DNA of 64,000 nucleotides from Bacteroides sp. M10 (lineage in GTDB: Bacteria; Bacteroidota; Bacteroidia; Bacteroidales; Bacteroidaceae): the NCBI RefSeq assembly GCF_014334015.1, contig NZ_CP060488.1:4422501-4486500 (forward strand), given 5' to 3'. A program made the translations under genes and the position numbers. Below the pieces are notes generated by a model. The model was given only the letters and a program-made list of their open reading frames with translations. It had not been told where the DNA came from and did no database searches. This document shows positions 11,284 to 59,298 of this stretch, piece by piece (within the stretch, counting starts at the first letter, position 1; each line of letters opens with the position of its first letter).

Positions 11284-11356
<73 letters not shown>

Positions 11357-11364
11357 CTCAAATA

Positions 11365-11405
11365 AAACGCTGATTATTAGTTCTTTAATCAGCGTTTCTC
11401 TTTTC
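11365..11405 (+). terminator. Terminator after tRNA-Thr
   Basis: A perfect 12-bp stem pairs 11365-11376 with 11386-11397 around a 9-nt loop and is followed by CTCTTTTCT. Confidence 0.8.
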
Positions 11406-11445
11406 TAAAAATTCAATTCCGAATAAAAAAACATAAATCTGCGTA

Positions 11446-11453: not shown

Positions 11454-11494
11454 CACAAAATTGTATAGTAGAATTGTGTTTTGATTATTCGACT

Positions 11495-12727
11495 ATGGCA
11501 ACAATCAGATTAACAATTTTAAGTTCTATTAAGGAACATGATGGCAGGCTTCCCATCTTAGTCTGCATCTCCCAAAAGAAAGAACGCGCCTACATCAAAA
11601 CAGAGTTTCTGTTAGATGATATTGCAGAATTCGATAACGGTAAAGTCGCTTACCGGAAGGATGCGAACGTCATGAATAAAAGGCTTGAATTTGTGTTTTC
11701 ACAATACAAAGAGAAATTTAATTCTATTGAATGTATAGACTATTTTTCTGCAATTCAGATAAAGCGGATTATAATGTCCAAGGAACGCCCTTCACATATT
11801 TCGTTTCTGGAGTTCTGGAAACAGCGCATAAATGAAATTAGGGAAGAGGGGAGGGAAAGCTATGCAAAAATGAATGAGGAGACTGTACGGGTGTTTACTA
11901 ATGCGGAAGGAGATGTACCTATTCCTGCAATTAATACTTTATTGGTAGAGCATTTTAAAAAGTGGATGATAAAGAAAGGCTATGCTAATGGAAACATCGG
12001 ATTGAGATTAACCCATCTGAAAGCCCGGATAAACGAGTTGATAAAATCAGGTGTTCTGAAAACGGATGTACATCCATTTGCGTACACGAAAATACCAACA
12101 GCAGAACCTAAAGAGTGCGATCTTTCAATAGAAGAATTTCAGAAAATACAAAGAACGGAAGTCGAAGGAAAACGATTGAATTTAGGTAGGGATATGTTTC
12201 TACTCTCTTTCTATTTGTGCGGTATCAATCTGAAAGATTTATTATCAGTCGATTTGTCGGTGGATATACTTTCTTTTGAAAGAATCAAGACTGTTCATGC
12301 TAAGACTGGAAAATCAGTCATAACGATACCTATACATAGTGAAGCGAAAGCAATTATCAGTAAGTACATAAATAAAAGGGGATTTTTGGATTTGGGGTAT
12401 TCTTATACCTATTCTAATTTGCAAAAATATATCAATCTTTGCATGAGGGAACTAAAAGAGCACTTAGGGATTAAACAGACATTGTGCTTTTATTCTGCCC
12501 GTAAGACTTTTGCGCAATTCGCCTCTGAACTTGGCATACCAGACGGAGTGATAGATTATTGTCTCGGTCATTCGGACAAGAATCGAGGAATCATCCGATA
12601 TTATACGAAGGTAAAGCAAAAGCAAGCAGAAATAGCCATAAACAGAGTAATTGACTATGTGAACAACCCGGACAAATATAAGGACTATATAGAGATGAGA
12701 GCGGATATCATGATGATGAAAGGATAA
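11495..12727 (+). CDS. int: Prophage tyrosine recombinase (integrase)
   Basis: The 410-residue protein has the Bacteroidota integrase layout: an arm-binding domain (MATIRLTILSS...), a core-binding SAM-like domain, and a C-terminal catalytic domain with HAKTGKSVITIPIH, SARKTFAQFA, the LGHSD box and the nucleophile in RYYTK. Two usual residues differ: the box-I Arg position reads GINLKDLL, and the HxxR His is replaced (YSAR). Such changes occur in some Bacteroidota recombinases. The ATG at 11495 is preferred to TTG 11474. It should insert the phage into tRNA-Thr. Confidence 0.93.
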   Translation: MATIRLTILSSIKEHDGRLPILVCISQKKERAYIKTEFLLDDIAEFDNGKVAYRKDANVMNKRLEFVFSQYKEKFNSIECIDYFSAIQIKRIIMSKERPSHISFLEFWKQRINEIREEGRESYAKMNEETVRVFTNAEGDVPIPAINTLLVEHFKKWMIKKGYANGNIGLRLTHLKARINELIKSGVLKTDVHPFAYTKIPTAEPKECDLSIEEFQKIQRTEVEGKRLNLGRDMFLLSFYLCGINLKDLLSVDLSVDILSFERIKTVHAKTGKSVITIPIHSEAKAIISKYINKRGFLDLGYSYTYSNLQKYINLCMRELKEHLGIKQTLCFYSARKTFAQFASELGIPDGVIDYCLGHSDKNRGIIRYYTKVKQKQAEIAINRVIDYVNNPDKYKDYIEMRADIMMMKG

Positions 12728-13053: not shown

Positions 13054-13116
13054 AAACGAGTATCTTTAGTGAGCAAACCCTGACCTCTTTTGTTCTTAAT
13101 GAAAAGAAGCAGAGTT

Positions 13117-14807: not shown

Positions 14808-14808
14808 T

Positions 14809-15507: not shown

Positions 15508-15526
15508 AGAGGTAGTAATCCCCCTT

Positions 15527-16357: not shown

Positions 16358-16386
16358 AAAACTATAATTTATTGATTCTATATTCG

Positions 16387-17301
16387 TTAAAACAAGCCTT
16401 TCTCATATTCTTCCCAAGACAACAACTTACGTGAGTCTGCAGCAACTCCTATATTTCCCATTACTGTTTTTGCACGCTGTCTATCATCGTCAGTATAACA
16501 GACTATTATCCAACTAGAACTATCTGAAATAGAATCTCTAATTTTACAAATATATGGCATATCTATTTCATTAAGAGAATGTCCTAGCACAACTACCTTT
16601 TCTATATATTTTAAAGAATCAAAAAAACTTTGGTTTTCGTCAATAATATTCTTCACTGGCTTTTGAAATTTATAAAAAAGAGCATGAGAAGCTGCTTCTG
16701 CATCATAACTGGGAGTTCTATTGTTTTCTCCATTTTCATCTAGTTCAGATGTTTCACCTTCTGAAACTTCCACTCCATGACCAAAAACAAGATTTTCCTC
16801 ATTGTCATCGCCTATATATCCATGTATATGAAAAACTTTTGGAATATTGTAAAATTTTTCAAGTGTAGGGGTATAGTTAAAAGACAAAAAGAGAGCATTT
16901 TTTTCAAAATGCATATTTTTTCGTTCTATTTCGGTTTCAGATATTTCATTAATCCAGTCCCTAAATGATTGTTTTATTCCAAGACGCATTTTCTCAGACT
17001 CTTCATTAATTTCGTCTAATACTCCAAAATAATCGCTCCACTGTGGATGTTCCTGTTCCATAAATCTTTCAGAAACGTTATCATGGTTATCATAAAATTG
17101 CCTCGCATCAAAATTCTCAAAATTTTCTTCAAAATGAGACCACCAATCGTCTTTGTTTTTTGGGGGAAAGTATACTTCCAAAAACTCTTCAACATTCGGC
17201 GTATTTATCTTTGCAAATTCAGAATAATCTTTGTAGGAGGATTTTAAACCGTGAAATAGGTCGAAGCCATTCCCGATTATATATAATGTACTATCTTTCA
17301 T
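16387..17301 (-). CDS. abiH: AbiH-family abortive infection protein
   Basis: The 304-residue protein starts MKDSTLYIIGNGFDLFHGLK, the AbiH signature, with SYKDY just after it, and later has LSFNYTPTLEKFYNIPKVFHIHG and VVLGHSLNEIDMPY, also typical. AbiH gives abortive infection in Lactococcus; its mechanism is not settled. The ATG at 17301 is preferred to upstream alternatives because it places the signature at the N-terminus. It precedes the Mrr-like nuclease on the same strand, forming a small defence pair. Confidence 0.88.
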   Translation of the reverse strand: MKDSTLYIIGNGFDLFHGLKSSYKDYSEFAKINTPNVEEFLEVYFPPKNKDDWWSHFEENFENFDARQFYDNHDNVSERFMEQEHPQWSDYFGVLDEINEESEKMRLGIKQSFRDWINEISETEIERKNMHFEKNALFLSFNYTPTLEKFYNIPKVFHIHGYIGDDNEENLVFGHGVEVSEGETSELDENGENNRTPSYDAEAASHALFYKFQKPVKNIIDENQSFFDSLKYIEKVVVLGHSLNEIDMPYICKIRDSISDSSSWIIVCYTDDDRQRAKTVMGNIGVAADSRKLLSWEEYEKGLF

Positions 17302-17386
17302 AATTATGTATTTTAGATTATGACACAAAGATAATATATCGTTAGTCATTAGCATTTCGTTAGCACATCAAATTCATAAAACTTAT

Positions 17387-20430: not shown

Positions 20431-20937
20431 TTATTTCTTAAATTTACACACCAACCATCCCGCAAGAATCAAGCCAATGACATAGCAATAAACTTTATCT
20501 TTATGCAAATCCCACCAAGATAATTCGACTACCTTCTCTCTTTGATTTAGTAAAGCATTCACCTTGTTACTTATAGTATCAAGGCGATTCGAGAACTGCT
20601 GCAAAGTAATGGATAATGTTTCATCAACTTCTGTTCGTTCCTGATCCTGCTTGGATGCAGTAGTAGTACTTTCTTTAATCGGATATTGCTTTCCTGTTGA
20701 ATCGGGAGGAGAAAGATAAACAGTTGTATTTTCAATCTTTAGATCACTCAACTTGTCGGTAGTAATCTTCGTCTGCTTATTCACGTTCATCTGTAGAGAC
20801 TCAATCATGTTTCGCAGGTATTGGAACTCTCCGTAATAGTCCACCTGCTTTTGCATCTCGATGTTACGGGAAGCCTTGCAGGAACTTAACCATATTGCTG
20901 ACGTTAACAATATGGTAATGTATATTATTCGATTCAT
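20431..20937 (-). CDS. Unimolecular spanin candidate (lipoprotein with C-terminal membrane anchor)
   Basis: The 168-residue protein has a lipoprotein signal ending in the lipobox LSSC (about residues 18-21), a periplasmic stretch rich in helix and Ser/Thr, and a C-terminal hydrophobic segment (VYCYVIGLILAGWLVCKF) followed by lysines. An outer-membrane lipid at one end and an inner-membrane helix at the other is the defining topology of u-spanins such as T1 gp11. It overlaps the amidase gene by 4 bp and ends the holin-amidase-spanin lysis cassette. Confidence 0.72.
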   Translation of the reverse strand: MNRIIYITILLTSAIWLSSCKASRNIEMQKQVDYYGEFQYLRNMIESLQMNVNKQTKITTDKLSDLKIENTTVYLSPPDSTGKQYPIKESTTTASKQDQERTEVDETLSITLQQFSNRLDTISNKVNALLNQREKVVELSWWDLHKDKVYCYVIGLILAGWLVCKFKK

Positions 20938-21428
20938 GGCCGGATCACTGTATTGCGTAAGAAATTGGAAAATTCACTTCGGACATCGAAGCAGGGACAC
21001 GCTTTGATATATTCTGCCGGCTCTACTTCACCGCTGCCATCCAAATCGGGCGAAGTATCACGATGTCCAAGAACCTCGATAATAGGATACTCTTTACAGA
21101 GCTTCGCAACCAATTCACGCAAAGTTACCTTTTGAGCGATCGTTCTTGTGTCTGCGGGCTTTCCGTTTGCATCCAAACCACCTATGTAGCAGATGCCAAC
21201 ACTATGCTTATTATACGAAGATTCGCTAAAACCTTTCGTATTGCAATGTGCCCCGTCAATGGATAGCGGGCGACCGTTCTCTATCATTCCGTCCAGGTCA
21301 ATGACGAAGTTATAACCGATCTGATTGAATCCCCGAGCCCGGTGCATCCGGTCAATATCTTTGGCTCGTAGAGCCTGTCCGGCACGCGTGGCCGAACAAT
21401 GGATGATAATTGCATCAATAGTTTTCAT
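20934..21428 (-). CDS. Endolysin: N-acetylmuramoyl-L-alanine amidase (Amidase_2)
   Basis: The 164-residue protein has the zinc-ligand pattern of type-2 amidases: IIIHCSATR (His10), IDGAHCNTKG, and LGHRDTSPD. ACPCFDV supplies the third metal ligand position. It cleaves the bond between MurNAc and L-Ala in peptidoglycan. There is no signal peptide, so release depends on the holin encoded just upstream (4-bp overlap at 21425-21428). Confidence 0.93.
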   Translation of the reverse strand: MKTIDAIIIHCSATRAGQALRAKDIDRMHRARGFNQIGYNFVIDLDGMIENGRPLSIDGAHCNTKGFSESSYNKHSVGICYIGGLDANGKPADTRTIAQKVTLRELVAKLCKEYPIIEVLGHRDTSPDLDGSGEVEPAEYIKACPCFDVRSEFSNFLRNTVIRP

Positions 21429-25500: not shown

Positions 25501-26503
25501 TCATACTTTCTCCAGCTATGAGACAATCTTCGAAATTCAACTCTTCTGGGATGTCTTTATCTACAAAGTCAAAGAAGTTATTCTTCTTGTTCACTTCAAT
25601 AACAGCACTGACAGTACCGACACGGGAAGGATAAATAGCTGTACAATCCAGACTATCTTCCTTTGCTGTTGTAAGTTCTTTATCGGCACGCATGACACAA
25701 GTTCCATCCGCATCGGTCTTATAGATACGCGCCTTAGTAGAATCGAAGCCCTCTTCATTCTCAAATTTGATTCCATCAAATCGGATAGTCTTATTCTTTG
25801 GAAGTAACAGGTACTTAGATCCGTATGTAGAATAATCAATATTGCGATCTGTAGTTTCTACCAAAATTATTTCGGGTGGTATCTCCCCGGATTCGCGACC
25901 AACACCGACCTTAAAACCGTGGCCTTTACCATACGACAGTTTCAAAGGGTTCTCCTTGTTATACTCAACTTTACGCAGATGGATAGTCTTAATTTGGTTT
26001 CCTTCAACCGTTTCTTCAATGATCTGCCATTCTGTTTCATATAGTTCTGCAAGTTGATTGAAAGCATCAAGAATATAGGTGTGATTGTAGTTGATTACTT
26101 TTTCCGTTCCTTCAATGCAATCACCGACTTTCCAACCGGTACTCCGACGGTTCAGGTTTTCAACGAGTAGACGTAGGTGTTCATGTGGCTTGGCTGTATA
26201 TGAGAATTTAATACTTCTGTCAACGGTATGACGTACTTTCCACAGCATAGCATCAGCCTCCCCAGTTTCCAGAATCAGAGTATATTCGAAGTTACGTTCA
26301 CCGTTCTTCTTGAAATTGCTATCCCTCTTCAAAGAATAACGCTTCCCGTAGAAGTCACACCAGGAGCCAACCGGAATTTCAATATATCCGGGATAATCGA
26401 AATATAAAGTTAATGAGCACTCCTCCATGATAGCTTCATAAGAGTAGCTTTCATCCTTTACTTCGATTTTTATTTCCTTATCATCATTATATAAAGTTAC
26501 CAT
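22505..26503 (-). CDS. Tail-tip/host-specificity protein (prophage tail protein)
   Basis: The 1332-residue protein begins MVTLYNDDKEIKIEVKDESY. Its first 500 residues look like the baseplate-hub region of tail-associated proteins. A helical middle contains two tandem copies of a 155-residue unit (each with GLHxYVDGAFADG and DKFTLFNSALA), 465 bp apart in DNA. The C-terminus is Gly/Ser-rich and beta-like (GGFTIENGRLVWTRSDYFGG). It should contact the host surface and lead the tail tip. The ATG at 26503 is chosen because an extension to 26647 adds a hydrophobic stretch that would cover the predicted late promoter. Confidence 0.8.
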   Translation of the reverse strand: MVTLYNDDKEIKIEVKDESYSYEAIMEECSLTLYFDYPGYIEIPVGSWCDFYGKRYSLKRDSNFKKNGERNFEYTLILETGEADAMLWKVRHTVDRSIKFSYTAKPHEHLRLLVENLNRRSTGWKVGDCIEGTEKVINYNHTYILDAFNQLAELYETEWQIIEETVEGNQIKTIHLRKVEYNKENPLKLSYGKGHGFKVGVGRESGEIPPEIILVETTDRNIDYSTYGSKYLLLPKNKTIRFDGIKFENEEGFDSTKARIYKTDADGTCVMRADKELTTAKEDSLDCTAIYPSRVGTVSAVIEVNKKNNFFDFVDKDIPEELNFEDCLIAGESMTVIFQTGMLTGKEFEVKYIHEAKDKKEARRFEIVPQEIDGITMPEPEVWRPKVGDTYAVFGMQLPKAYICNDSTQTGASWEAFKEAAKYLYEHEDKAFIFTGTLDGIWAKKRWLEIGGKIVLGGYVDFYDTQFHPEGSLIRMIGIKRYINNPYSPEIELSNEPISTSVSSDLNKIETNKVEVDIKHKDALQFTKRRFRDAKETMSMLEDALLNFSGSVNPITVSTMQLLVGDESLQFRFVNSKTNPVQVSHNITYNASTRILNAPAGILQHLTLGISSLSSSHKADEYKYWDMAEYNSPALIDPEKKYYLYAKVGKENQTGTFLLSETAIKMEQITGYYHLLTGVLNSEYEGSRSFVQLYGFTEILPGRVTTERILSPDGDTYFDLVKSEIGGNIQIKAGSSGLENLSEWEAAHQEIKDAAKAAKDAADSVEGLHNYVDGAFADGLIDEAEAKAIEKYINTINNTKQAIEATYNKLYTNVYLSGSAKVGLLNAKVTLMGSIENLINAINTAIADGQTTVEEKRDVDNKFTLFNSALATFNTAVEEANKAIQDKLKEYSDEALQQAIQALEDAANAAKAAQDAADSVDGLHDYVDGAFADGIIDGAEAKAIEKYLNTVKNTKSAVEATYSKLYVNTYLEGSAKTALLNAKVYLFGAIDNLIAAINTAIADGQTTIEEKKNVDDKFTLFNSALASFNTAVEEANKAIHDKLKSYSDECTADLKVLNTQISAQVTRVDSLTQRIDTAGWITTADGNKIYASKELENGNTLISYINQAAGETTIHSSKINLEGAVTITALHSDLQTMINSKIDRDGLGKLAFEDAVEYAKLGTTIVVGGYLNTDLIKVRRIDADSGFIGGFTIENGRLVWTRSDYFGGTSRSLKLGSGTAKEGVVNVTFNAATDGKFGVCAVGATAGGSAAIYGSSRSNPTYPSNYIYAGYFDGNVEVLGDVSANGFYPRDGNGNSLSVLSDVWITNLDSPGKVYKQKIHIVKGMVIEMTNT

Positions 26504-26562
26504 ATCCTTAGAATTATATCCTAAAATATAAATGTCAAATAGAAATGTATTGAATAATAGGC

Positions 26563-26635
26563 ATAAAAGTAAGGAAATGATAGACGAATCATTGATAAAA
26601 TAATATATTACACACAACATCAACTGCATTGTCAC
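26563..26635 (-). promoter_or_regulatory. Composite late-operon site A (tail tip/lysis operon)
   Basis: The inverted repeat ACAACAT-N8-TTGTCAC (26614-26635) is a degenerate match to the consensus found at three other late operons. Exactly 42 nt further in the direction of transcription lies TACTTTT (26565-26571 on the minus strand), a TAnnTTT -7-like box. It lies 111-132 bp before the tail-tip ATG. Confidence 0.6.
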
Positions 26636-26694
26636 GAAATAAATCAAAATGAAAAATATTTAAAAGAAATCACTCAAAATGTAGTTTAATTCAC

Positions 26695-26711
26695 CTAAGT
26701 TCTCTCGGGAC
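26695..26711 (+). repeat. Inversion site 1 (silent cassette 1)
   Basis: CTAAGTTCTCTCGGGAC is identical, in inverted orientation, to 28872-28888 within the active fibre gene. Confidence 0.85.
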
Positions 26712-27048
26712 AAATTGTGCGTTAAAAGATTTTTCCAATGTTACGACAAAGGACCTTGGACAAAATGGATATTATAAGCTACCAGATGGTCTATTGATTC
26801 AGTGGGGATATGGTGGTGGGTATTCAGGGGCTACTAATTATTTTTTTTCTACGTCTTTTTTAAACACTTACTATTCAATATCAATGTGTGCAGAATATGC
26901 CGTTACTGCTGAATCCGTCGTTTTATGCCCTTATATTAACACTAAAGCTACTACTTATTTCAAAGGTGGTATGACATATACAAGTGGTAATGTAGTATAT
27001 CCTACTTCTTGGAAATTCTTTTGGATAGCTATAGGCCGTTGGAAATAG
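26695..27048 (+). pseudogene. Silent tail-fibre tip cassette 1 (no own start)
   Basis: Starting at the recombination site, the frame reads LSSLGTNCALKDFSN and later GYYKLPDGLLIQWG and ends WIAIGRWK. It parallels the C-terminus of the active fibre on the other strand (LSSLGTTYALADLSN, GYAKFNNGLLVQWG, WFAIGRWK). There is no upstream in-frame start that would make the whole cassette, so it is read as an unexpressed alternative tip, about 117 codons, in reversed orientation. Unlike cassette 2 it is not followed by its own assembly gene. Confidence 0.8.
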
Positions 27049-27066
27049 AAATATTATAACATAAAT

Positions 27067-27465
27067 TTGATTATGGATAGATTTAGTAGAAAATTGGTAT
27101 TACTTTTATTGCTTGTAATTTGGCAAAGTTCTCTCGGAACTAATGCAATTCAATCATCTGGTCAAAGTTTCGGACAAAATTCATATATTAAGTTCAATAA
27201 TGGTCTATTAATCCAGTGGGGAGTAAAGGCTGGAGCTGTAGGATTCTCCTCATTATATCTACCTACAAGTTTCTATGATACGAATTATATCGTACAACTA
27301 ACGGGAGTATCAGCTAATACAACAGAGATTATAGTGTATGCTCCAACAATATATACTAAAACAGTTTCTTCATTTAAAGTAGGTACAAGGTATATAGCAA
27401 GCGGAGGAGAAATAGCTTGGACAGGTTGGCAGTTTACTTGGTTTGCAATAGGTAAATGGAAATAA
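27067..27465 (+). pseudogene. Silent tail-fibre tip cassette 2
   Basis: From the recombination site at 27124 the frame reads SSLGTNAIQSSGQ, YIKFNNGLLIQWG and ends WFAIGKWK, matching the active fibre tip (about 113 codons). Upstream, an in-frame ATG at 27067 would give a short hydrophobic start (LVLLLLLVIW); this may be chance or a way of exporting the unused tip. It is followed 16 bp later by its own fibre-assembly gene, forming a tip-plus-assembly pair in opposite orientation to the active pair. Confidence 0.8.
27124..27140 (+). repeat. Inversion site 2 (silent cassette 2)
   Basis: CAAAGTTCTCTCGGAAC matches the other two sites at 15 of 17 positions and contains the dyad AGTTC-TCTCG-GAACT, as expected of a recombinase core. 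Confidence 0.8.
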
Positions 27466-27481
27466 TTTAAAAACAAATATC

Positions 27482-28012
27482 ATGAAATATTGGAAAAATG
27501 GATTCTATGACGAACCGGTAGACGGTTCGGTAGAAATTACGGATGAATATTATCAAGAGTTACTGGCTGGTCAATCTACCGGCTTGATAATAACTGAAAG
27601 CAAAAAAGGATATCCTATTTTAGTTGTGCACGAGGCTACTATCGAAGAAACCAGAGCGCAAAAACTTGATGAATTACGATTGTTCGATTCATCTGAAGCA
27701 GTGAATCAATTCAGTATAAACGGAGTATTTGGATGGCTGAATAAGAATACTCGTGTAGGGCTTATGAACTCAATTAGTATTGAAAGAGAAACTGGACGAT
27801 CTGAAACAAGTATTTGGCTAGGTGATACGCAGTTTATTCTCTCTATCGAGAAGGCCGTTAATATGCTGCAACAACTAGAATTATATGCCCTTGCGTGCTA
27901 TGACACAACACAAAGGCATATCAACGCTATCAATCAATTAGAAACAAAAGAAGAAATTGAAGCATACAACTTCAAAACTGGTTATCCCGGAAAGCTCAAC
28001 TTTGCCGGATAA
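27482..28012 (+). CDS. Alternative tail-fibre assembly protein (DUF4376-like), silent side
   Basis: The 176-residue protein begins MKYWKNGFYDEPVDGSVEIT and resembles DUF4376 proteins found next to phage tail fibres (LFDSSEAVNQFSINGVFGWLNKNTR, LELYALACYDTTQRHINAIN). It is homologous along its whole length to the gene at 27982-28512 but differs in the middle. It lies behind silent tip cassette 2 and has no obvious promoter, so it is probably expressed only after inversion. Confidence 0.8.
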   Translation: MKYWKNGFYDEPVDGSVEITDEYYQELLAGQSTGLIITESKKGYPILVVHEATIEETRAQKLDELRLFDSSEAVNQFSINGVFGWLNKNTRVGLMNSISIERETGRSETSIWLGDTQFILSIEKAVNMLQQLELYALACYDTTQRHINAINQLETKEEIEAYNFKTGYPGKLNFAG

Positions 28013-28512
28013 CCTATCGTATAATCGTAGTTTTCGATTTCCTCAATAGTCTGCAATGATCTGACTGCTGCGATGTGCGATTGTGTCACATTGTAGCAGT
28101 TTAATGCATACATTTCAATCTCATTCAGCATTGATAAAGCGTCAGGTATAGGGATAACATACTTCACTGCATCATACCACAGGATTGTATGCGTTTTCCC
28201 TGCATTTTTCTCAATCGAAATTGAGTTAAATAATCCAACACGTGTGGATTTGTCTAACCACATACTTTCCCCTTTAATTTTAAAAGAATTGACATCGGCC
28301 GATTTGTCAAATATCTGTATTTTAGATATTTTCATTTTTCGCACTTCTTCGATGTCGTACTCATATTCTACCAAAATCGGGTATCCATTCTTACTTTCAA
28401 CTATCAGTAAACCGTTAGACTGCCCATCTAATAGCTGATTGTAATGCTCATCCGTTATTTCTACTGAACCGTCTACCGGTTCATCGTAGAATCCATTTTT
28501 CCAATACTTCAT
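27982..28512 (-). CDS. Tail-fibre assembly protein (DUF4376-like), active side
   Basis: The 176-residue protein begins MKYWKNGFYDEPVDGSVEIT and has the DUF4376-type features KSADVNSFKIKGESMWLDKSTR and EMYALNCYNVTQSHIAAV. It starts 17 bp after the active fibre gene, in the position of tail-fibre chaperones. Its first 66 bases are about 90% identical to those of the convergent copy, while the body diverges, which suggests each copy suits its own tip. Its 3' end overlaps the convergent copy by 31 bp. Confidence 0.82.
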   Translation of the reverse strand: MKYWKNGFYDEPVDGSVEITDEHYNQLLDGQSNGLLIVESKNGYPILVEYEYDIEEVRKMKISKIQIFDKSADVNSFKIKGESMWLDKSTRVGLFNSISIEKNAGKTHTILWYDAVKYVIPIPDALSMLNEIEMYALNCYNVTQSHIAAVRSLQTIEEIENYDYTIGYPAKLSFPG

Positions 28513-28528
28513 AATATTTGTTTTTTAG

Positions 28529-31210
28529 TTATTTCCAACGCCCGATCGCAAACCAGTCCCATGATTCTTGTGATAATCCAGTAGTACCCCCACTTGCATA
28601 ATTTCTATTCAAATAAAATCTACTAACTGTTTTATTTATTGCCAAAGGAGATGATGAATATACGGCGGAGTCACTACTAGGCTTATATACAGTTGCAAAT
28701 ATTTTATATTCAGTATTATAAAAAGATGTAGGCATAGTCACACTATACGAAGCTGTAGATGAACCTCCAACTCTGCCCCATTGTACAAGTAATCCATTAT
28801 TGAATTTTGCATAACCGTTCAAGGATAGGTTTACGCTCATTGCGTTCGATAGATCAGCTAAAGCATACGTAGTCCCGAGAGAACTTAGTAAAGTTTTCTC
28901 CGCATCCGTCATGAATTTTCTTGTAGTACTTTCTTCAATCATTGATGCTGGATGAGAAGCCGGATGAGAGTAATTATTAGCTCCGGAGGCTATTCCGCTA
29001 AGTTTTGTACGTTCTGCATCCGTCATAAAACGATGAGTCGAATCTTCTTCAACGTCCGTCGCTGTATGTTTATGAGAACTTGCAGCATAACTACCCTTGG
29101 GTTGGTATGCTGAATCGTGGTTGTGATTTCCTGCCGCCTTACTATTCCAAGTAGATCTTTCCGAATCTGTGACAAATCTATGTGTAGAATCGTCCGTAAT
29201 GTCAGTTGCTGCATGTTTATGAGAAGACGGTGCATAGCTACCTTTAGGTTGATATACTGAATCGTGATTATGGTTTCCCGCAGCTTTACTGTTCCAAGTG
29301 CTTTTTTCTGCATCAGTAACAAAGCGGTGAGTACTATCCGGAGTAATATCCGTTGCTTCGTGTTTATGCGAACTCGCTGCATAACTTCCTGCTGGCTGAT
29401 AGACCCCTGTATGAGTATGATTCGACGGGGACGCACCAACCTCGGAAGCTGTATAAGATGGTTTACTTGCAGCTTTCGCCCATGCAGGCACATCGCTTGC
29501 TGGCATAGAAGTTGGAAAATCACTTATTTCAGACTTCTTATGAGTATGCGCTTTAGGTGTACGTGCGTCACTTAGTCGACTATCATTTCCTTGGCAAACA
29601 GTTCCGGAAGTTGTGCCAAAGTTCTTATTGAAAGCTGTATTTTTTGAGAATACAGGTTCGTATATTCCTGCATGGTTATGTGTATCCAAAGCTGCTTTCA
29701 AAACCTTCCCTTGTTCGGCAGAAAGGACCTTGCCAGTACCACCACTTGTTAGGTTGTTGACAATATCGGAAACGTTGATTTTCTTCCCTAACTCTGTTGC
29801 CATGGTAGCGGCGAAGTTCGGATCATTATTAAGGGCATTAGCCAATTCAATAAGCGTGTCGAGGGCTTCCGGTGCTCCAGCTACAAGTGCATCCACTGCA
29901 TCTTTTACTTTAGCATCAACTCCAGAAACTGCGTTATTGGCGGCCTGTGCTGCCGCATTTGCGCTATCTGTGGCAGCTTTAGCAAGAGCTGTTTGCGCTA
30001 CTGATGCGTTTTTGGCTGTATTAGCATCATCAGTAGCTTTTTTCGCTAAAGCTGTTTGGGCTTCCGATGCAACTTTGGCAGCGTTAGCCTCTTCTGTTGC
30101 TTGGTGGGTTTCTTCTTTGGCAGCATTAATACTTATAATTGCTGCGTTAGCGTCATTAGTAGCTTTCTTTGCAAGAGCAGTCTGTTCAACTGATGCGTTT
30201 TTGGCAGCATTTGCATCATTCGTAGCTTTTTTTACAAGTTCTAGTTGTGCGGTAGCATCTCCTGTAGCAGATGTCATTTCTTGTATAATACCGCTATACT
30301 CTGACTTACGTTGGGATTCGGCTTCTACACGTTCTGTTTCAGCAGAGACACGCCTAGTCTCATTTGAGGAACGAGTATCTTCTGCAGCTTTGCGGGTATC
30401 TTCATTTTGCTTTCTTTTATTTTCTTCGGATACCCGGGCTGTCTCCGCTGATTTACGTTCTGTTTCAGCGGACTTTCTTTTGTTTTCTTCTGATACTCGG
30501 GCTGTCTCCGCTGATTTACGGTCTGTTTCAGCAGATACGCGTTCAGATTCGACAGTAACGCGATTATCTTCGGCTGTCACACGTGCAGTTTCATTCGTTT
30601 CTCTCGTGGATTCGGCTTCTTTTCGTTCATCTTCGGCTGTTACGCGATCTGTTTCAGCTGTAGAACGTGTTGTTTCAGCCGCTTTTCGTTTGTCTTCTTC
30701 CTTCACACGTTCCGATTCTGCAGAAGAACGTCCTGTTTCAGCGGTCTTACGTGCATCTTCATTACTTTTACGTGTTTGTTCATCTGACACTCGTTTATTT
30801 TCTGTTTCAACGCGGCTAAGTTCTGCAGATACACGTTGCCCTTCAGCGGTCGCACGAGCTGCTTCCTCTGCTTTACGGGTATTCTCATTTATGATACGTA
30901 CTGATTCTGCAGCTGACCGGGCTTGTTCTTCATTTGAACGATTTCTTTCAGCATCGATACGAGTAGCTTCATTGCGTTGTCGAGTATCTTCATTCGCTTC
31001 TATTTGGGTTCGGGAATCATCGGCCGTCTTTGCTGCGTCATTGGCCTTCTTTGTTGCTGCAACTACGTCATCATAGGCTTTCTTTATGAATTCAAGACTA
31101 ACTTTTACACTTGTTTGTACGCCATTCACCATTTTAACGCCAATAGTGTACAATCCTACCATGCTATCAGCAAGCGTTAATTCGCTGATTTTTTTCTTTT
31201 TAATTGGCAT
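28529..31210 (-). CDS. Tail fibre protein with heptad shaft and switchable tip
   Basis: The 893-residue protein has a head region (MPIKKKKISELTLADSMVGL), then about 30 repeats of seven residues with the pattern R-x3-E-x2 (about residues 70-290), an Ala-rich helical part, and His-rich repeats (SSHKHxATDIT...STHRFVTDAE and NHNHDSxYQPKGSYA) typical of trimeric fibre shafts. The tip after LLSSLGT (about the last 117 residues) is the switchable receptor-binding part. The crossover site 28872-28888 lies exactly at the end of the last shaft repeat. It overlaps the distal tail gene by 11 bp. Confidence 0.9.
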   Translation of the reverse strand: MPIKKKKISELTLADSMVGLYTIGVKMVNGVQTSVKVSLEFIKKAYDDVVAATKKANDAAKTADDSRTQIEANEDTRQRNEATRIDAERNRSNEEQARSAAESVRIINENTRKAEEAARATAEGQRVSAELSRVETENKRVSDEQTRKSNEDARKTAETGRSSAESERVKEEDKRKAAETTRSTAETDRVTAEDERKEAESTRETNETARVTAEDNRVTVESERVSAETDRKSAETARVSEENKRKSAETERKSAETARVSEENKRKQNEDTRKAAEDTRSSNETRRVSAETERVEAESQRKSEYSGIIQEMTSATGDATAQLELVKKATNDANAAKNASVEQTALAKKATNDANAAIISINAAKEETHQATEEANAAKVASEAQTALAKKATDDANTAKNASVAQTALAKAATDSANAAAQAANNAVSGVDAKVKDAVDALVAGAPEALDTLIELANALNNDPNFAATMATELGKKINVSDIVNNLTSGGTGKVLSAEQGKVLKAALDTHNHAGIYEPVFSKNTAFNKNFGTTSGTVCQGNDSRLSDARTPKAHTHKKSEISDFPTSMPASDVPAWAKAASKPSYTASEVGASPSNHTHTGVYQPAGSYAASSHKHEATDITPDSTHRFVTDAEKSTWNSKAAGNHNHDSVYQPKGSYAPSSHKHAATDITDDSTHRFVTDSERSTWNSKAAGNHNHDSAYQPKGSYAASSHKHTATDVEEDSTHRFMTDAERTKLSGIASGANNYSHPASHPASMIEESTTRKFMTDAEKTLLSSLGTTYALADLSNAMSVNLSLNGYAKFNNGLLVQWGRVGGSSTASYSVTMPTSFYNTEYKIFATVYKPSSDSAVYSSSPLAINKTVSRFYLNRNYASGGTTGLSQESWDWFAIGRWK
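28872..28888 (-). repeat. Inversion site 3 (active fibre gene)
   Basis: The minus strand reads CTAAGTTCTCTCGGGAC, encoding LSSLG at the junction of shaft and tip; it is identical to site 1 and 15/17 identical to site 2, both on the plus strand. Confidence 0.85.
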
Positions 31211-32165
31211 AATTTTTTAAGTCAATATAAAATATTCCATCTTCTGTTATGATAAATTCTCCTGCTTCGGATGCAAGCAGGAAGTCTGTTTCTCCAATCC
31301 GGAAACTAGTAAATACAAGTTTCAAGGTAAATTCCCACCATACCCCATTATTAAGAAGAAAATTGTTTGTCTGGCAACTCTTATAATAGCAAGGATAGCT
31401 TTCACTCCACTCATCACAATAAAATATACGTTCCGCATCGGAATACTCATATCCTTCATTATCTGTCTTAGCAGACAGTTTTGTGAGATCATAGAGTAGG
31501 GCATCGCGATTACGCCAGAACGTTTCAATCGTCCCGGCCCGCATCAGGCATTTGAGAGATACTTCTTTGGTTTGGAATTTCACAACTTCACCGTCATAGA
31601 TTGCTCCATCTTGACGTTTGAAATTCTGTAATAGGTTCTTTTTTACCGTCGGAGCCTTTAGTATTTCAGCATTGCTACCTTGCAATACGACTACGCCATA
31701 ATCGGATAAGTCTTTGTTATCAATCTCGTAACCTTTAGGCATTGGAAGCTCATTTACGGGCTCCTGGTATTCGTAATCGACTTCTCGGGGGAAGTCGTTA
31801 CTAAAAATAAATTTAGCAACTTCAAGGCTCGGATTAATAACATAGTTGCTTTGGGAAGACAGACGTAACTTATAACTCCTGCCGATTAAGGGAAAGTAAA
31901 ATTCATGATAACTCAAGTCAGAAAGTATATCAATCAGTCCACCAATACCCAAACTGCCTATATATGCAAACTCAATGCTTACTTCAGCTGTATTAAGAGT
32001 TGGTGTAGTCAGATCAAACTCCTTCCCGTCTTCTTCCGGCCAGTCGTTTTTGTCCGGCTCTTTCATAGCTGGAAATGCTACAAGATTATTGTAACTTCCC
32101 CTTGTAACACATATACCCAATCTGGTATAAGCATCTGTTCTGTCTATTAGTAATTGCCCTTTCAT
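31200..32165 (-). CDS. Distal tail protein (Dit-like)
   Basis: The 321-residue protein lies between tape measure and fibre genes, the usual place for the distal tail/hub adaptor. It is beta-rich (VSIEFAYIGSLGIGGLIDIL, YKLRLSSQSNY) with no catalytic motif. It overlaps the tape-measure gene by 4 bp and the fibre gene by 11 bp. The assignment rests on position and size more than on sequence motifs. Confidence 0.65.
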   Translation of the reverse strand: MKGQLLIDRTDAYTRLGICVTRGSYNNLVAFPAMKEPDKNDWPEEDGKEFDLTTPTLNTAEVSIEFAYIGSLGIGGLIDILSDLSYHEFYFPLIGRSYKLRLSSQSNYVINPSLEVAKFIFSNDFPREVDYEYQEPVNELPMPKGYEIDNKDLSDYGVVVLQGSNAEILKAPTVKKNLLQNFKRQDGAIYDGEVVKFQTKEVSLKCLMRAGTIETFWRNRDALLYDLTKLSAKTDNEGYEYSDAERIFYCDEWSESYPCYYKSCQTNNFLLNNGVWWEFTLKLVFTSFRIGETDFLLASEAGEFIITEDGIFYIDLKNYAN

Positions 32166-35100
32166 CGCTTAAGTGTTATCCCTTTAGTGTTAAGTGAATC
32201 AATTCCTAATTTCATAGAATACATGAATTGTCTAATGTCAACAAGATTTGCTGTATACCCTTCAATGTTAGAAAGATGGGCTACGATTATATCATGTCCT
32301 CTAACCATGTCGCTCATGTTCTTGTCCATGCTGGTAAGGAATGATAGTTTTTCGGCAATCTTCGCTGTATCCGACTGGATCACTTTCACACCACTGTTGA
32401 TTTCGTAGGTATGTCCCTGAATGACTGTAAAGCGTCCGTTAAGTTCATCAACAGAATCTTGTGAAGCCGTTGCAACACCCTTCTTTGAAGCTTCACGTGA
32501 TGATTCAGAACCAGAGCTACCTACTATTTTCTCCCAAGCTTCGCGGTCTGATAATGCACCGTTTACAATGTTATCCCATTTCGTTTTTAAATCATTGACA
32601 TCATCTGTTGTTATACCTCCTTCCTTATCATTTGCCTTGGCAAAATCCTTATACCAGTTTTCTAACTCTGTTTCATAGTTTTTGGCAAACATTGAAGTAA
32701 AAATCGCTTTTCTCATGTATTCTTCGAAATTATCAGCAAAGTCCTGAGAAGAAGCATCCATATCCATAAGAGTATTTACAAAACTATCAAATAGGCTATC
32801 AAAAGAAGTCTGGGTTAGTTGTTCATTGATAGATTTAATGATTTCATTTTCGGTATCCCCATACTCAATAATATCATCCAAATACCCCCTGAAATCACCA
32901 TCCATTTTTGACCATAACCCAGAATAATTGGTTTTTATCCATTCCAACTGTTCTGCTGACATATCAAGCATACTCCACATGCTACTGAAGTCAACACCGC
33001 CAAGGGATTTAGATATATCGCCAGCCACATCTTTCCAGTTAGTACCGTTGTAATCATAAGAACCTTTCCACATTCGATAATTCATAGAATGACTACCAGA
33101 ACTTGCACCTGCATCCAAGCGCGAACTAGCTAGTTCCCTTGTTATTTTCCTCTCGGAATTTAATAAGTCCAATGCCTCTTGTCCGGCTTTTGTCGCTTCT
33201 ATTCCGTAAGATTCTTTTATATATGCCTTTTTCTTATCTAGTAGCTGATCCCAGACATCTATCAAAGTGTCATACTGCTCAACAAGTTCGTTGTAGTCGT
33301 CATAATCAGCACTTTTCATGAAACTCATATCTAGTCCAGTTATGGATTCTGTGTCCCTCGCGAAAGCGTCGGTTACAGTACTTGATATGTTTTCGATAAT
33401 ATCCATACCATATTGAAAAGTACCCACTTCACCTGCAGCATCTATAATAGATAAGATAGCCGAAATGATTCCACCTATTTTGGTTCCTGAAGAGCTTAGG
33501 GCATCAACAAGGGCTCCAACTGTATTTCCAATATCAGACAAACTAACATTCTCTTTGCCGAGCTGCACGATGGCATTGGAGATAGCAGTAATATTACTGA
33601 TTGCCTTGTCTTTAGACTTTTCTACATTTGCCTGTGCATTAGCTTGATTTTGTTCTGCTGCGTTCTTTTTCTTCTTCGCTTTCTCTATAGCAACTTCATC
33701 GCCTGATTTCAATGCCTTTTCCAACTCCTCCTGTGCCTCTTTTACTTTATATACAGTGCCTTCATATTCAGTAAGAGAGTCCGTCAATCCTCCAAAGAAA
33801 CCACCTTTATCAACCAATGCTGTATTTATGTTATTCAAAGCTTCTTCTATCACTTTGATCTGTTCCGGGGTGGAGGTTTTGAACTCAGGAGACCTTTTAA
33901 ATTCTTGCAACTGTTTCTTTACCTGCTGTAATTGTTTCTTGGTAACTTTACTCATATCACCAAAGATCATCCCCCAATTTATATCCTCTTTGAGCTTACT
34001 TAGATCAAGGTTTGCTAATGCTTCATCCCATTCTTTTTGAATTACCCCCTTTCCACCGAATGTTGTTTCTTTATCCATAGCAGCACGGTACTTCTTGTCT
34101 ATGGCTTCTTTCTTTTGGGAGAACGTACCATATTTCAATAAATATTCATTCATGGCGTCCTCTCGTTTCTGCCATTCATCGATACCTTGTTTAGTTTTGG
34201 TGTTCTCAATCACTTCATCATACTTAGAAGTATTAACCTTAACGGTAGAATCGTTGAAGGTTTGTTTTTTATATCCCTTGATTCGTTTTGCTTTCAATTC
34301 CTCTTCAGCATCGAACTTTTCTTTCTCCGCTTGGATATAGGCACGGATATAATCTTCCTTTTGGCGTTGGAGGGCTTGGATTTCTTTCTTGTTGTTGAGT
34401 TCTCTTTGAGAATATTCTTTGAGGAAGCCGTCAGACATGGCGTCAATCTTGGATTGGGAAAGTTGAGTTTCCATGTCCTCTTGTTGGCGTTGACGCTCTA
34501 ACCCTTGCTTATCGAGAAGAAGTTTGTATTTCTCTGTTTCTTTACGGAGTTTTTCAGCTTGGTTTTCTTCTTTTGTAAGTTTACTTCCGGTCAGACCACC
34601 AAGTTTTTTATACGTCTTTTCAGCCGTTTCTTCCCGTTTTTTTGCTTCTTCATATTGTTTTGAAGTGAACTTGGACTTATCTTTTTCTATCTCAGATAAA
34701 GCTTTTTTGGCTTCATCCCATTCTTTCTTGGCTTTTTCATAATCTACTTTGTAGGTAGTCTTACTCCGTGAGTCGTATTCGGATTGAAGGATAGCTATCC
34801 TATTAGCTAATTCACTCTCCGTAGTTGAGCCTTTCATTGAGCCAATTCCTACATTTAAAGAATACCGTTTATTGTTTTTTCGAGCTTGTTGGAGTCGTTT
34901 CATCTCCTCAAGTTCTGTTTTAATTTGAATATCTGTGGATTTCTTTAAATCAAGTTGCCATTGTGCTAGCTCATCAGAACGAACATCTTCCTGATACAAG
35001 TCTCTTGACGGTTTTGCGAGTTCCAATTTTCTTCTTAAAGAAGATTCTGTTTCTCCTTTGTATTTTTCAGCCAATTCGAACTCTTTCTTAGATAGTCTAT

Positions 35101-37093
35101 TTTTGCGATAATAAGGATTTTCACCTAACTTCTTCCATAGTGATAACATCTTCTCATATTCTTCAATCCTCGCTGTAGAGTCACTAAGATTCTTTTTATT
35201 TGTCTCTACCTTATTTTTAGTAACTTCCTCATTATACTCTTTCCATAATCCGATAAGGTCTTTAATATGCCCTTTTTCGTCTATGTATTTTTGAAACAGA
35301 GAAGGATACTCTTTTTTTATGGCCTCTATAGCCTTCACTCTGTTCATGGAAGAGGTATATTCGTTTTGAATGGTTGCTATTAAGTTCTCTAACCTGGATT
35401 TATGTTCTTCTTCTTTCTGTAAAGAATCTGCTTTTGTCTTGTTGTATTTCTTTTGAGCCCTTTCCGCTGCAGTAGTAGAATCATGTAAAGCCCACATTGC
35501 GGTTGCTGCGCCAACAATTAAGGTTGCAGCCAAAACATAAGGATTTGCTTTCATTGCAGCATTCAAGGCTAGTTGAGCTACGGTCTGCGCTTTAGTTGCA
35601 ATAGTCTGTATTCCTTTGGCGACTGCATCAGCTCGTGCAGCTACTGTCCAGCTATGAGTTAATGCAATGTTCGTGATAAGAGCAGTTTTATACACCCCAT
35701 AGGTGGCAATCATTCCTACAAGCACTTTACCTATAGTTTCATAGTTTTCTATCAGGGAAGTAGTCAATTGAATACCAGACATAATAATACCTTCCGACTT
35801 TTGCCCCATCTCATTGAAAGCATTATCCATAGCATCTTGCATCATTGAAAGCTGACCGTTGATAGTCTTAGAGGCGTTTTCGGACATTCCAAAGAACTTG
35901 CCACCGGCAGAAGTAGCATCAATAAACGCCTGCTGTACCATTTCAGCGGAGATAGCCCCCTTGGACATTTCATCTTTCAATGTAGCAATAGACTTTCCTG
36001 TCTTTTCGGAAATGGTTTGCAGTGGATTAAATCCGGCATTGATCATTTGGTTAAGGTCTTGTCCCATCAGCTTGCCAGCAGCGGACATTTGGGAGAAAGC
36101 TAAGGTAAGAGAATTGAACTTATTGGATTCCCCCATGGAAATATCACTAATGGCTTTCAAGTACTTGATAGTGTCCTCTGCTTGAATATTGAAACCCAGC
36201 ATCATTTTTTCAGCACCTACCATATCAGTCAAAGTAAGAGGCGATATTTTTGCCAATTCTTTAATTTGGGGGATGATTTGACTAGCAACATCTTTTCCAA
36301 CCATTGTTTCAATTGCTGTCTGCATAGACTGAAACTCACCACGCACTCGGATTATTTCAGAGCCTAATTTCTTCAGAGCTGCAACGCCTCCAATAACACC
36401 TAACAATTTCCCGAAAGACAGAGACATCTTTTCATTTGCGTTTACCACTGTTTCTGTTTCTTTCTGATATAGCTTTTGTTCGTCTTTTAATTTACGCACT
36501 GACAAACGGGCTTGCGCTTGTTGAGTTTGAAGTTCGAACAATGCGCTCTTTTCCTCCTGTAATGCACTTTTTGCACCTTTAAAATCAGCAAACAAAGCAT
36601 TTTTCTTAGTTGTGCCTTCTCCTGCTTTTTTATATGCTTCGCCAAGTGTCCGAACATCATGTTCAATATCCTTTATCAAAACCTTCTGTTTGATGATTTT
36701 TTCAGTTAAGGTATTGACAGCCTGTGCCCCCTCATAAACCTGTTCTTTCAAGACATTACCAATATTGACATTGCCTGAAACATCGCTGAAAGTAGAGCCT
36801 AACTTGCCATTGCCAACACTCGCAATTCTCTGGTTTAATCGCTCAATATGCTTTTCAAGTCCATCAATTTGCCTTTGAAATGATGAAATACCCTGCACTT
36901 CATTAGGGAAGTTCTTCATTATTTGTTGCACACGTTCAAGACTTTTCAACGAAATCTTTTCAAATGCTGCATCAATCCTCCGCCCTTGAATTTCAGCCGA
37001 ATTTCCAAGTTCTACAAAAGCCTTTTGAGACTCACGAATTTTTCGCATTACTTCTTCATTGTTGTATGTCGCATCGAAATGTAAGTTTCCCAT
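32162..37093 (-). CDS. Tail tape measure protein
   Basis: The 1643-residue protein is long, helical and Lys/Glu-rich. It has the tape-measure N-terminal domain (SMQTAIETMVGKDVASQIIPQIKELAKISPLTL cut here to its key parts: MGQDLNQMINAGFNPLQ and GKSIATLKDEMSKGAIS) and hydrophobic segments near residues 450-550. Its length sets tail length, here suggesting a long non-contractile tail. The ATG at 37093 (MGNLHFDATYN) is preferred to TTG 37114. It is the first gene of the tail operon behind late site B. Confidence 0.93.
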   Translation of the reverse strand: MGNLHFDATYNNEEVMRKIRESQKAFVELGNSAEIQGRRIDAAFEKISLKSLERVQQIMKNFPNEVQGISSFQRQIDGLEKHIERLNQRIASVGNGKLGSTFSDVSGNVNIGNVLKEQVYEGAQAVNTLTEKIIKQKVLIKDIEHDVRTLGEAYKKAGEGTTKKNALFADFKGAKSALQEEKSALFELQTQQAQARLSVRKLKDEQKLYQKETETVVNANEKMSLSFGKLLGVIGGVAALKKLGSEIIRVRGEFQSMQTAIETMVGKDVASQIIPQIKELAKISPLTLTDMVGAEKMMLGFNIQAEDTIKYLKAISDISMGESNKFNSLTLAFSQMSAAGKLMGQDLNQMINAGFNPLQTISEKTGKSIATLKDEMSKGAISAEMVQQAFIDATSAGGKFFGMSENASKTINGQLSMMQDAMDNAFNEMGQKSEGIIMSGIQLTTSLIENYETIGKVLVGMIATYGVYKTALITNIALTHSWTVAARADAVAKGIQTIATKAQTVAQLALNAAMKANPYVLAATLIVGAATAMWALHDSTTAAERAQKKYNKTKADSLQKEEEHKSRLENLIATIQNEYTSSMNRVKAIEAIKKEYPSLFQKYIDEKGHIKDLIGLWKEYNEEVTKNKVETNKKNLSDSTARIEEYEKMLSLWKKLGENPYYRKNRLSKKEFELAEKYKGETESSLRRKLELAKPSRDLYQEDVRSDELAQWQLDLKKSTDIQIKTELEEMKRLQQARKNNKRYSLNVGIGSMKGSTTESELANRIAILQSEYDSRSKTTYKVDYEKAKKEWDEAKKALSEIEKDKSKFTSKQYEEAKKREETAEKTYKKLGGLTGSKLTKEENQAEKLRKETEKYKLLLDKQGLERQRQQEDMETQLSQSKIDAMSDGFLKEYSQRELNNKKEIQALQRQKEDYIRAYIQAEKEKFDAEEELKAKRIKGYKKQTFNDSTVKVNTSKYDEVIENTKTKQGIDEWQKREDAMNEYLLKYGTFSQKKEAIDKKYRAAMDKETTFGGKGVIQKEWDEALANLDLSKLKEDINWGMIFGDMSKVTKKQLQQVKKQLQEFKRSPEFKTSTPEQIKVIEEALNNINTALVDKGGFFGGLTDSLTEYEGTVYKVKEAQEELEKALKSGDEVAIEKAKKKKNAAEQNQANAQANVEKSKDKAISNITAISNAIVQLGKENVSLSDIGNTVGALVDALSSSGTKIGGIISAILSIIDAAGEVGTFQYGMDIIENISSTVTDAFARDTESITGLDMSFMKSADYDDYNELVEQYDTLIDVWDQLLDKKKAYIKESYGIEATKAGQEALDLLNSERKITRELASSRLDAGASSGSHSMNYRMWKGSYDYNGTNWKDVAGDISKSLGGVDFSSMWSMLDMSAEQLEWIKTNYSGLWSKMDGDFRGYLDDIIEYGDTENEIIKSINEQLTQTSFDSLFDSFVNTLMDMDASSQDFADNFEEYMRKAIFTSMFAKNYETELENWYKDFAKANDKEGGITTDDVNDLKTKWDNIVNGALSDREAWEKIVGSSGSESSREASKKGVATASQDSVDELNGRFTVIQGHTYEINSGVKVIQSDTAKIAEKLSFLTSMDKNMSDMVRGHDIIVAHLSNIEGYTANLVDIRQFMYSMKLGIDSLNTKGITLKR

Positions 37094-41297: not shown

Positions 41298-42059
41298 ATG
41301 AGTGTACTCAGCGCAAATACTTTGTTTCATTTCACAAAAAGTAAAGAGAATCTTACGAGCATATTAAAAAGTAATTTCCGACCAAATTATTGTAATGAAA
41401 GGGCTTACTTTACAGATGAATACCCCAATTGGAATATTCCTATGGTATGTTTTTGTGATATTCCTTTATCCCAAATAAAAGAACACACATCATGGTATGG
41501 GGAATACGCCATAGGGATAACAAAAAAATGGGCTATTCAGAATAATGTTAATCCAATACTATATATTAATGATAATATTGAACTGATTAATACTTTAAAA
41601 GAAAACCTCAAATTTTTGCTTGATTTAAGAGATAAAGAAAACTGTATAAATAGTAACATACAGCCATATATTACCAATCTTTTTTATCAATGTGCTTATA
41701 TCAAACCTTATGAAGGAGAACAATATAACCACAAGCAAAAACAGGTAAAGACTAAACGTTTTTATGATGAAAGAGAGTGGAGGTACATTCCATCAAGAGC
41801 TAAATTTTCCGAACCCAATTCTATGTTTCGTTTTGGTAATGATTCATTTATTAAAGGTGGATTTAATAGCTATATCACAGATGATTTAGGATTGAGTTTT
41901 GAACCTAAATACATAAACTATATAATAGTATCAAAAGAAAAGGAAATATTAGAAATTAAAAGAGAAATCGAAATGATCAAAGGTGAATACTCTCGGAATG
42001 ATGTTGAATTACTTACTACCCGTATTATTTCAATGGAACGAATAAAAGAAGATTTTTAA
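41298..42059 (+). CDS. abiGi: AbiGi-family abortive infection protein
   Basis: The 253-residue protein has the AbiGi family start LFHFTKSKENLTSILKSNF, then IPMVCFCDIPLSQIKEHTSW and YGEYAIGITKKWAIQNNVNP. In Lactococcus AbiGi is the antitoxin-like partner of the AbiGii toxin. No AbiGii homologue is recognised next to it; the neighbours are putAbiC and DUF2971. The start has the ACGATTATG context shared with other genes in this element. Confidence 0.8.
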   Translation: MSVLSANTLFHFTKSKENLTSILKSNFRPNYCNERAYFTDEYPNWNIPMVCFCDIPLSQIKEHTSWYGEYAIGITKKWAIQNNVNPILYINDNIELINTLKENLKFLLDLRDKENCINSNIQPYITNLFYQCAYIKPYEGEQYNHKQKQVKTKRFYDEREWRYIPSRAKFSEPNSMFRFGNDSFIKGGFNSYITDDLGLSFEPKYINYIIVSKEKEILEIKREIEMIKGEYSRNDVELLTTRIISMERIKEDF

Positions 42060-42063
42060 TATA

Positions 42064-42120
42064 ATGCAAAACACTGTCACCTGCCCCAACTGTGGGAAGA
42101 AGTTTAAGATGAAGGAATAA
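42064..42120 (+). pseudogene. Zinc-ribbon fragment resembling the XRE regulator tail
   Basis: The 18-codon frame MQNTVTCPNCGKKFKMKE ends 22 bp before putAbiC. It matches the C-terminus of the XRE regulator at 61472-61726 (NTITCPHCGKKIKIEKGE) in 11 of 18 positions. It is either a remnant of such a regulator or a tiny zinc-binding peptide. Confidence 0.5.
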
Positions 42121-42141
42121 TACAATAAAAGTAAAAATACT

Positions 42142-43113: not shown

Positions 43114-43179
43114 CAAACTCACCAAACGCCCGCACCCAGTTTGCCGACCAGTGCGAGCGTTCAATAAAACACTAATACT

Positions 43180-59267: not shown

Positions 59268-59298
59268 AATCGTGTCTTTTAAATTAATAATTAAGTAG

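Follow-up and report, generated by a model that had tools for sequence, protein, structure and literature searches.

How might a Bacteroides prophage vary the tip of its tail fibre? The question is raised by a locus at positions 26,695 to 31,210 of a 64,000-nucleotide stretch of Bacteroides sp. M10 (NZ_CP060488.1, positions 4,422,501 to 4,486,500; hereafter the window), which holds a prophage. Here, a tail-fibre gene and two further fibre tips on the opposite strand share one short sequence at the start of the tip. Fibre-tip inversion is classical in enterobacterial phages, and an original prediction made from the DNA letters had described the locus as a Mu-G-like invertible switch. Our analysis indicates that this is very probably a DNA inversion system with three sites, carried by the prophage, that chooses the tail-fibre tip.

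The tail-fibre gene (28529..31210, minus strand; PF22337 and PF21882, PHROG tail-fibre matches) is composed of a constant body (28889-31210) and, in its 3′ part, of the tip in use (28529-28888), a Gp53-like_C domain (PF21882). Behind it lies M, the assembly gene of the fibre side (27982..28512, minus strand). A second assembly gene, P, on the silent side (27482..28012, plus strand), converges on M, with tips B and A located upstream of P. By their open reading frame (ORF) coordinates the 3′ ends of M and P overlap by 31 bases; both convergent genes announced by the original prediction are real. Their matches to PHROG 188, ‘tail fiber assembly protein’, are weak (4.7e-7 for M, 1.4e-8 for P), neither has a Pfam family at 0.001, and their relatives are annotated DUF4376. 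The three Gp53-like tips are 41-46% identical to each other and each begins at the same sequence, at the positions originally given. Tip A (26695..27048, plus strand; ORF list and homology to relatives' tips) has no start codon ahead, and the ORF list gives none until 26794. In contrast, the cassette at 27124 is not headless but an open gene. This leader-tip B gene (27073..27465, plus strand; PF21882) starts with an ATG at 27073 and carries an 18-residue, mostly hydrophobic leader (27073-27126), missed earlier, ahead of its tip. It has 122 homologues, many of them leader-bearing, and a profile built from the leader-tip proteins matches the solved tail-fibre chain 4mtm (E 5.7e-9).

The three predicted crossover sites coincide with the starts of the tips. 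Site F, within the fibre gene (28872..28888, minus strand), is identical over 17 bases to site A (26695..26711, plus strand) and matches site B (27124..27140, plus strand), which lies inside the leader/tip junction, at 15 of 17 bases, as stated in the original prediction. F thus faces both A and B. Searched with up to 2 mismatches, AGTTCTCTCGGRAC occurs three times in the window, always exactly, against 0.50 expected; three were reached in 1 of 100 shuffles. Comparison of 26501-27200 with 28501-29200 gave an exact inverted repeat of 17 bases as the longest, where 60 shuffles gave 8-14. Codon choice is also unusual: by the codon usage of 13 phage genes, in which CTC makes up 7% of Leu codons, the site codons AGT TCT CTC GGR have a joint P of about 0.002 per site. 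AGT-WCT-CTC-GGR is kept in 11 of the 12 sites of the window and of four related loci described below (L001, L002, L004 and L040), the exception being a site of L002 with CTT. Moreover, the window, L001, L004 and L040 all retain TAAGTWC, the left half, at the silent A end, though it codes there for neither fibre nor leader. The improbable codons and this conservation at the A end argue that the site is constrained as DNA.

The dyad AGTTC-N5-GAACT, originally placed in the crossover core, is perfect in the third copy (27127-27141) and only there, the other two copies reading GGACT and GGACA. A hairpin formed by the site would be unstable (-0.3 kcal/mol, z 0.37). On its left side, the site in L004 and L040 reads AGTA at ends of the fibre type and at A ends, but AGTT where the leader is; the G/A on its right side does not go with the flank. 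In these few sites the pattern agrees with a crossover within the few bases between, as would be made by a tyrosine recombinase with a short asymmetric centre.

The strongest evidence for a switch is provided by natural chimeras among database proteins. A set of 320 proteins was collected (120 of 122 matches were listed in one search and 120 of 384 in another), and the first 200 were compared pairwise. Among these, 157 were used (80 leader, 71 body and 6 other proteins, the last including P0024, which has a leader by eye), the remaining 43 having no S[ST]LGT site or a tip shorter than 90 aa. Identical leaders were found with tips less than 60% identical in 115 pairs, fibre bodies that agree at 95% or more over 60 residues with tips less than 60% identical in 485 pairs, and a tip common at 90% or more to a leader and a fibre protein in 67 pairs; the pairs were formed from 90%-cluster representatives and depend on each other. 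The proteins were split at the S-S/T-L-G-T motif, so that the position of the exchange point rests on the contrast between its two sides and not on a base-by-base measurement.

The same was observed for the lineage of the window. Among 223 site-bearing proteins (97 of the 320 being left out), 13 have a fibre body at least 80% identical to that of the window over its last 100 residues: two carry the window's tip (99%) and 11 carry tips only 34-70% identical to it. Conversely, the window's fibre tip is found on four leader proteins, at 97-99% identity, and P0213 and P0215, whose bodies are 95-97% like the window's, have a tip 100% identical to that of the leader proteins P0023 and P0029. Tips therefore appear to move between fibre and leader. 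Since 15-17 bases are fewer than the k-mers of common assemblers, the chimeras are unlikely to be assembly errors. The original prediction also held that one inversion swaps tip and assembly gene together. The switch itself is well supported by this natural variation, but a fixed pairing of tip with assembly gene is weakened, because the same tips adjoin different upstream parts and slots in other proteins.

Related loci show the two assembly genes in either position. L004, an IMG/VR provirus record, has the same three-tip layout as the window, with M on the fibre side, the leader on the middle tip and an integrase near-identical by eye to that of the window. In L001, which has two tips, no leader and different neighbouring genes, P is on the fibre side and M is silent; the types are thus reversed relative to the fibre. 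A tree of ten assembly proteins separates a P clade (100/100) from an M clade (92/89). L002 is arranged differently: fibre tip, leader-tip and assembly gene stand in one row on one strand, with no second assembly gene, and the tip behind its leader is 96% identical to the one on the fibre of the window.

L040 (NZ_OY725882.1) is a 2,286-bp record of B. finegoldii labelled ‘plasmid 72, complete, circular’. It holds tip 1, P, M, a leader-tip and a third tip, and it begins and stops with the same 19-base inverted repeat. This is suggestive of an invertible segment left as its own contig, in which case both orientations would have been present in the culture. As proof of inversion at site B its value was lowered: the third tip is 80% like tip A of L004, but tips 1 and 2 are 33-55% like L004 tips. 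A block of 92% identity, inverted relative to L004, covers the tip ends and the assembly pair and ends inside the tips, not at the site. In addition, the L040 leader-tip (1407-1907, minus strand) has GYGR at its end, where GRWK is usual, and after it comes a 3′ remnant of a different tip; this is a trace left by exchange within tips. The remnant and the block ends together argue that homologous exchange occurs too. Another record of the same strain, NZ_OY725946.1 (L044/L045), ‘complete circular plasmid’ 44, holds capsid, portal and tail genes and looks like a prophage contig.

From the orientation of the sites, the following mechanism can be proposed. A recombinase would join site F with the oppositely facing A or B. 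Recombination A x F would invert 2,160 bp (26712..28871), a segment of the kind seen in L040, so that the fibre would end in tip A, followed downstream by leader-tip B and P. Recombination B x F would invert 1,731 bp (27141-28871), placing tip B on the fibre together with P, and the former fibre tip together with M behind the leader. The virions released would thereby differ in their receptor-binding tips, and at least three host-range forms are predicted from the three tips. After A x F, F and B would be in direct orientation, so tip A and the leader could be lost; L001, which has no leader, would fit as a product of such a loss.

Several observations weigh against programmed inversion. No recombinase gene adjoins the sites, the neighbours of the segment being tail genes. 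L040 is labelled a circular plasmid, and we infer rather than read from the record that it is a segment; a 28.4-kb contig from this B. finegoldii strain, with a fibre body on it, diverges after ATACTAA and shows no site, so that no junction was seen. Convergent assembly pairs were found in just 2 of 36 IMG/VR loci with a relative of the assembly genes (the L004 and L001 records), which makes the switch uncommon in IMG/VR. One could then suppose that nothing is programmed, that the locus consists of inverted duplicate tip/assembly cassettes exchanged by general homologous recombination, and that the 17-base match merely reflects conserved coding for SSLGT. An inverted repeat of 211 bases, 76% identical, indeed spans the tip ends and the assembly-gene starts, and the tip remnant and 92% block of L040 are of the kind that such exchange leaves. 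However, the only exact stretch in the repeated region is the site, its codon choice is improbable, its left half is kept where it codes for neither fibre nor leader, the chimeras change over at SSLGT and L040 ends exactly at the repeats. We consider general recombination as the sole explanation improbable.

A three-site inversion system requires an enzyme, and a serine invertase of the Gin/Cin/Pin kind, encoded elsewhere in the host or in another prophage, is one candidate. The layout is the same as that of Mu G, PinQ can invert a segment of a prophage other than its own (PMC12529663) and B. fragilis Mpi acts on many scattered sites (PMC5903667). Yet no Resolvase-family match was obtained in five of five related records, several of them fragments, and none among the 27 window proteins scanned with Pfam, which are part of the window's ORFs. 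The 15-base dyad also has an odd centre of 5 bases, whereas crossover in Mu takes place at two central bases (PMC4406740). A serine enzyme is thus very unlikely. The sole recombinase among the scanned proteins is a tyrosine integrase (11474..12727, plus strand; PF13102 and PF00589), located beside a tRNA-Thr gene (11284-11357) and 14 kb from the cassettes, beside which there is no dedicated tyrosine invertase gene; the prophage extends beyond the window. The 56.8-kb provirus record of which L004 is part, G001, likewise has one Phage_integrase match and no Resolvase match; among the matches listed, its 18.0-22.6 kb correspond in reversed order to the window's 63.1-58.3 kb, and it extends about 18 kb beyond the right end of the window. 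The enzyme is most likely of the tyrosine type, and we see about equal chances for the integrase of the prophage and for a host enzyme that acts in trans. The integration site was also considered as the source of the crossover sites and rejected: 11201-11480 matches the site no better than with 5 mismatches in 15. As no repeat of at least 14 bases of 11300-11419 occurs elsewhere in the window either, a shared attachment (att) core is unsupported, and this unlikeness counts against the integrase as the enzyme.

What, then, is the leader-tip gene for? In leader-tip B the ATG lies 54 bases ahead of the SSLGT codons and the leader reads MDRFSRKLVLLLLLVIWQ. We extracted 43 distinct 18-residue leaders, of which 38 read SRK; since they were taken from 200 proteins by a pattern already requiring [SG][RS][KN], this motif is partly selected. 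All 43 have a net charge of +1 to +3 in the first eight residues as well as a ten-residue stretch with a mean Kyte-Doolittle value of 2.4-3.9, after which come the site residues. Between the leaders of the window and L002 the amino acid differs at 12 of 18 codons, and nine of these changes are hydrophobic for hydrophobic. The leader thus has the apparent form of a Sec signal peptide, and cleavage at SLG/T would be allowed under the signal-peptide rule. A weak promoter-like match, TTG-N20-TAAATTTG, lies ahead of the gene (27039..27069, plus strand); the pattern, the Bacteroides-type consensus, matches the window 12 times on the plus and 7 times on the minus strand. It was discarded as a common promoter of leader-tip genes, being present in the window only and absent ahead of the other leaders read.

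Two readings of this gene can be weighed. The leader may be a leftover, or a stretch merely translated before a stored tip, with no export and no function for the protein. The position on the silent strand and the weakness of the promoter-like match, not seen before other leaders, speak for this; the 43 leaders that keep their charge and hydrophobic stretch (with the selection just mentioned), the reading frame open with an ATG in all four loci read (window, L002, L004, L040) and the place of the L002 leader-tip between fibre tip and assembly gene speak against it. We regard the chances of this reading as evenly balanced. More tentatively, and with some doubt, the locus could be a two-output switch: one tip would be mounted on the virion while another, joined in frame to a Sec-type leader, would be exported and take up the corresponding receptor on the lysogen itself or on neighbouring cells. 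Leader and tip meet at the crossover site, so that the mounted and the exported tip would trade places at every B x F flip. A receptor-blocking role of the leader-tip is plausible by analogy. If two outputs exist, a single recombination act would both switch the host range and block receptors for rival or sister phages.

We searched for further members of the programmed inversion system. Nine IMG/VR contigs carry MTAAGTTCTCTCGGRAC; tips and assembly genes are present in two, L004 and L007 (the contig of L001), and were not found by tblastn in the other seven. TAAGTACTCTCGGRACY occurs in IMG/VR in L004 alone. CAAAGTTCTCTCGGRACY occurs there in two contigs, in which no part of the system is visible by eye in 0.7-0.8 kb around each site. 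IMG/VR scans with two neighbouring tail proteins yielded no confirmed relatives, and nothing in 50,697 phage records matched the leader-tip by tblastn. A search with assembly gene P gave 7 phage and 4 plasmid records. In one locus, L042 of the crAss-like phage cr56_1 (1802-5531), a fibre gene with a related tip (33%) precedes a related assembly gene (50%); the set occurs once and is not inverted, and a gene for a reverse transcriptase is found downstream of it. No member came out of two GTDB scans, one of which gave a distant Paenibacillus tip. Relatives among the database proteins are named B. finegoldii, B. thetaiotaomicron and B. ovatus, which by itself points to a Bacteroides or close kin as host of the prophage; since named Bacteroides proteins do carry the fibre, the GTDB scans were insensitive.

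The rest of the prophage includes a tape measure gene (32162-37090) and an amidase gene (20934-21428), both on the minus strand. Beside the integrase, at 13090-17355, are found UmuD/UmuC-like ORFs (by eye), an Mrr-type restriction endonuclease and AbiH. Amid the minus-strand tail genes, three plus-strand genes (41298-43869) match AbiGi, putAbiC and DUF2971 and are likely phage-defence cargo. A large-terminase-like ORF (53997-56297, minus strand) seems, by eye from its translation, to contain an intein within the P-loop (GGRGC ... HN-SGKS). A tRNA-Val gene (59298-59372, minus strand) lies inside the prophage, in a stretch also kept in G001.

In the literature searched on Bacteroides and B. finegoldii, in which few subscription papers were covered, the available text describes no such switch for a Bacteroides phage. 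A survey reports prophage inversions, especially around tail fibres, in four Proteobacteria species (PMC5903667). The nearest hint comes from B. fragilis phage ATCC 51477-B1, where the tail gene of a related phage is present in three rearranged pieces, one of them inverted (PMC2535602). Since Bacteroides hosts flip their own surface genes, a tip-flipping phage would be a direct counterpart.

How does this locus compare with known systems? ‘Mu-G-like’ is apt for the layout and the predicted effect, not for membership, as there are three short sites and no serine invertase in the scanned proteins. Like the Mu G and P1 C segments (Gin, Cin), it has a constant fibre part and opposed variable parts that each come with an assembly gene (S-U, U'-S'), both of which one inversion would swap together. 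Unlike them, it has three sites and tips and a leader-tip gene, and no serine invertase gene was found. Its sites are of 15-17 bases with a 5-base dyad centre, against 34-bp repeats with a 2-base central crossover, and gin adjoins the Mu G segment (PMC4406740).

The three tips place the system closer to the multi-site shufflons Min and Rin. The Rin shufflon of Bifidobacterium, likewise found in prophages of a gut bacterium, also has several tip cassettes that can replace one another behind short crossover sites, and tyrosine-type inversion, which we favour here, is predicted for it. Rin differs by its own tyrosine invertase gene (rin) beside the cassettes and its 11-bp sites, neither of which is seen here, and the available text mentions no leader-tip or paired assembly genes for it (PMC6109161). 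The Mpi and Tsr inversions take place in the same host genus, and Mpi, acting in trans on many sites, could serve as a model for the enzyme missing here; what these inversions change is the expression of capsule and surface proteins, not the fibre tips of phages (PMC5903667; PMC6109161).

For the leader-tip gene, the closest case is the P segment of E. coli e14, where PinQ, by inversion, attaches a gp53-like tip to a second, short N-terminus, giving StfE2, a product that blocks phage adsorption. A gp53-like tip on a second short N-terminus is also what the leader-tip gene encodes, recombination here being deduced from chimeras. In e14 the serine invertase comes from another prophage, and the portions available mention neither an export signal of StfE2 nor a third tip (PMC12529663). 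The Bacteroides leader-tip can thus be described as the StfE2 design plus an apparent export signal. It raises the question whether one phage switch exchanges mounted and exported receptor binders and, if so, would point to a way out of the cytoplasm for an StfE2-like fragment. A three-site fibre-tip inversion system with no invertase found at the locus and with a leader-tip gene is set apart both from Mu G, with gin, and from Rin, with its adjacent rin.

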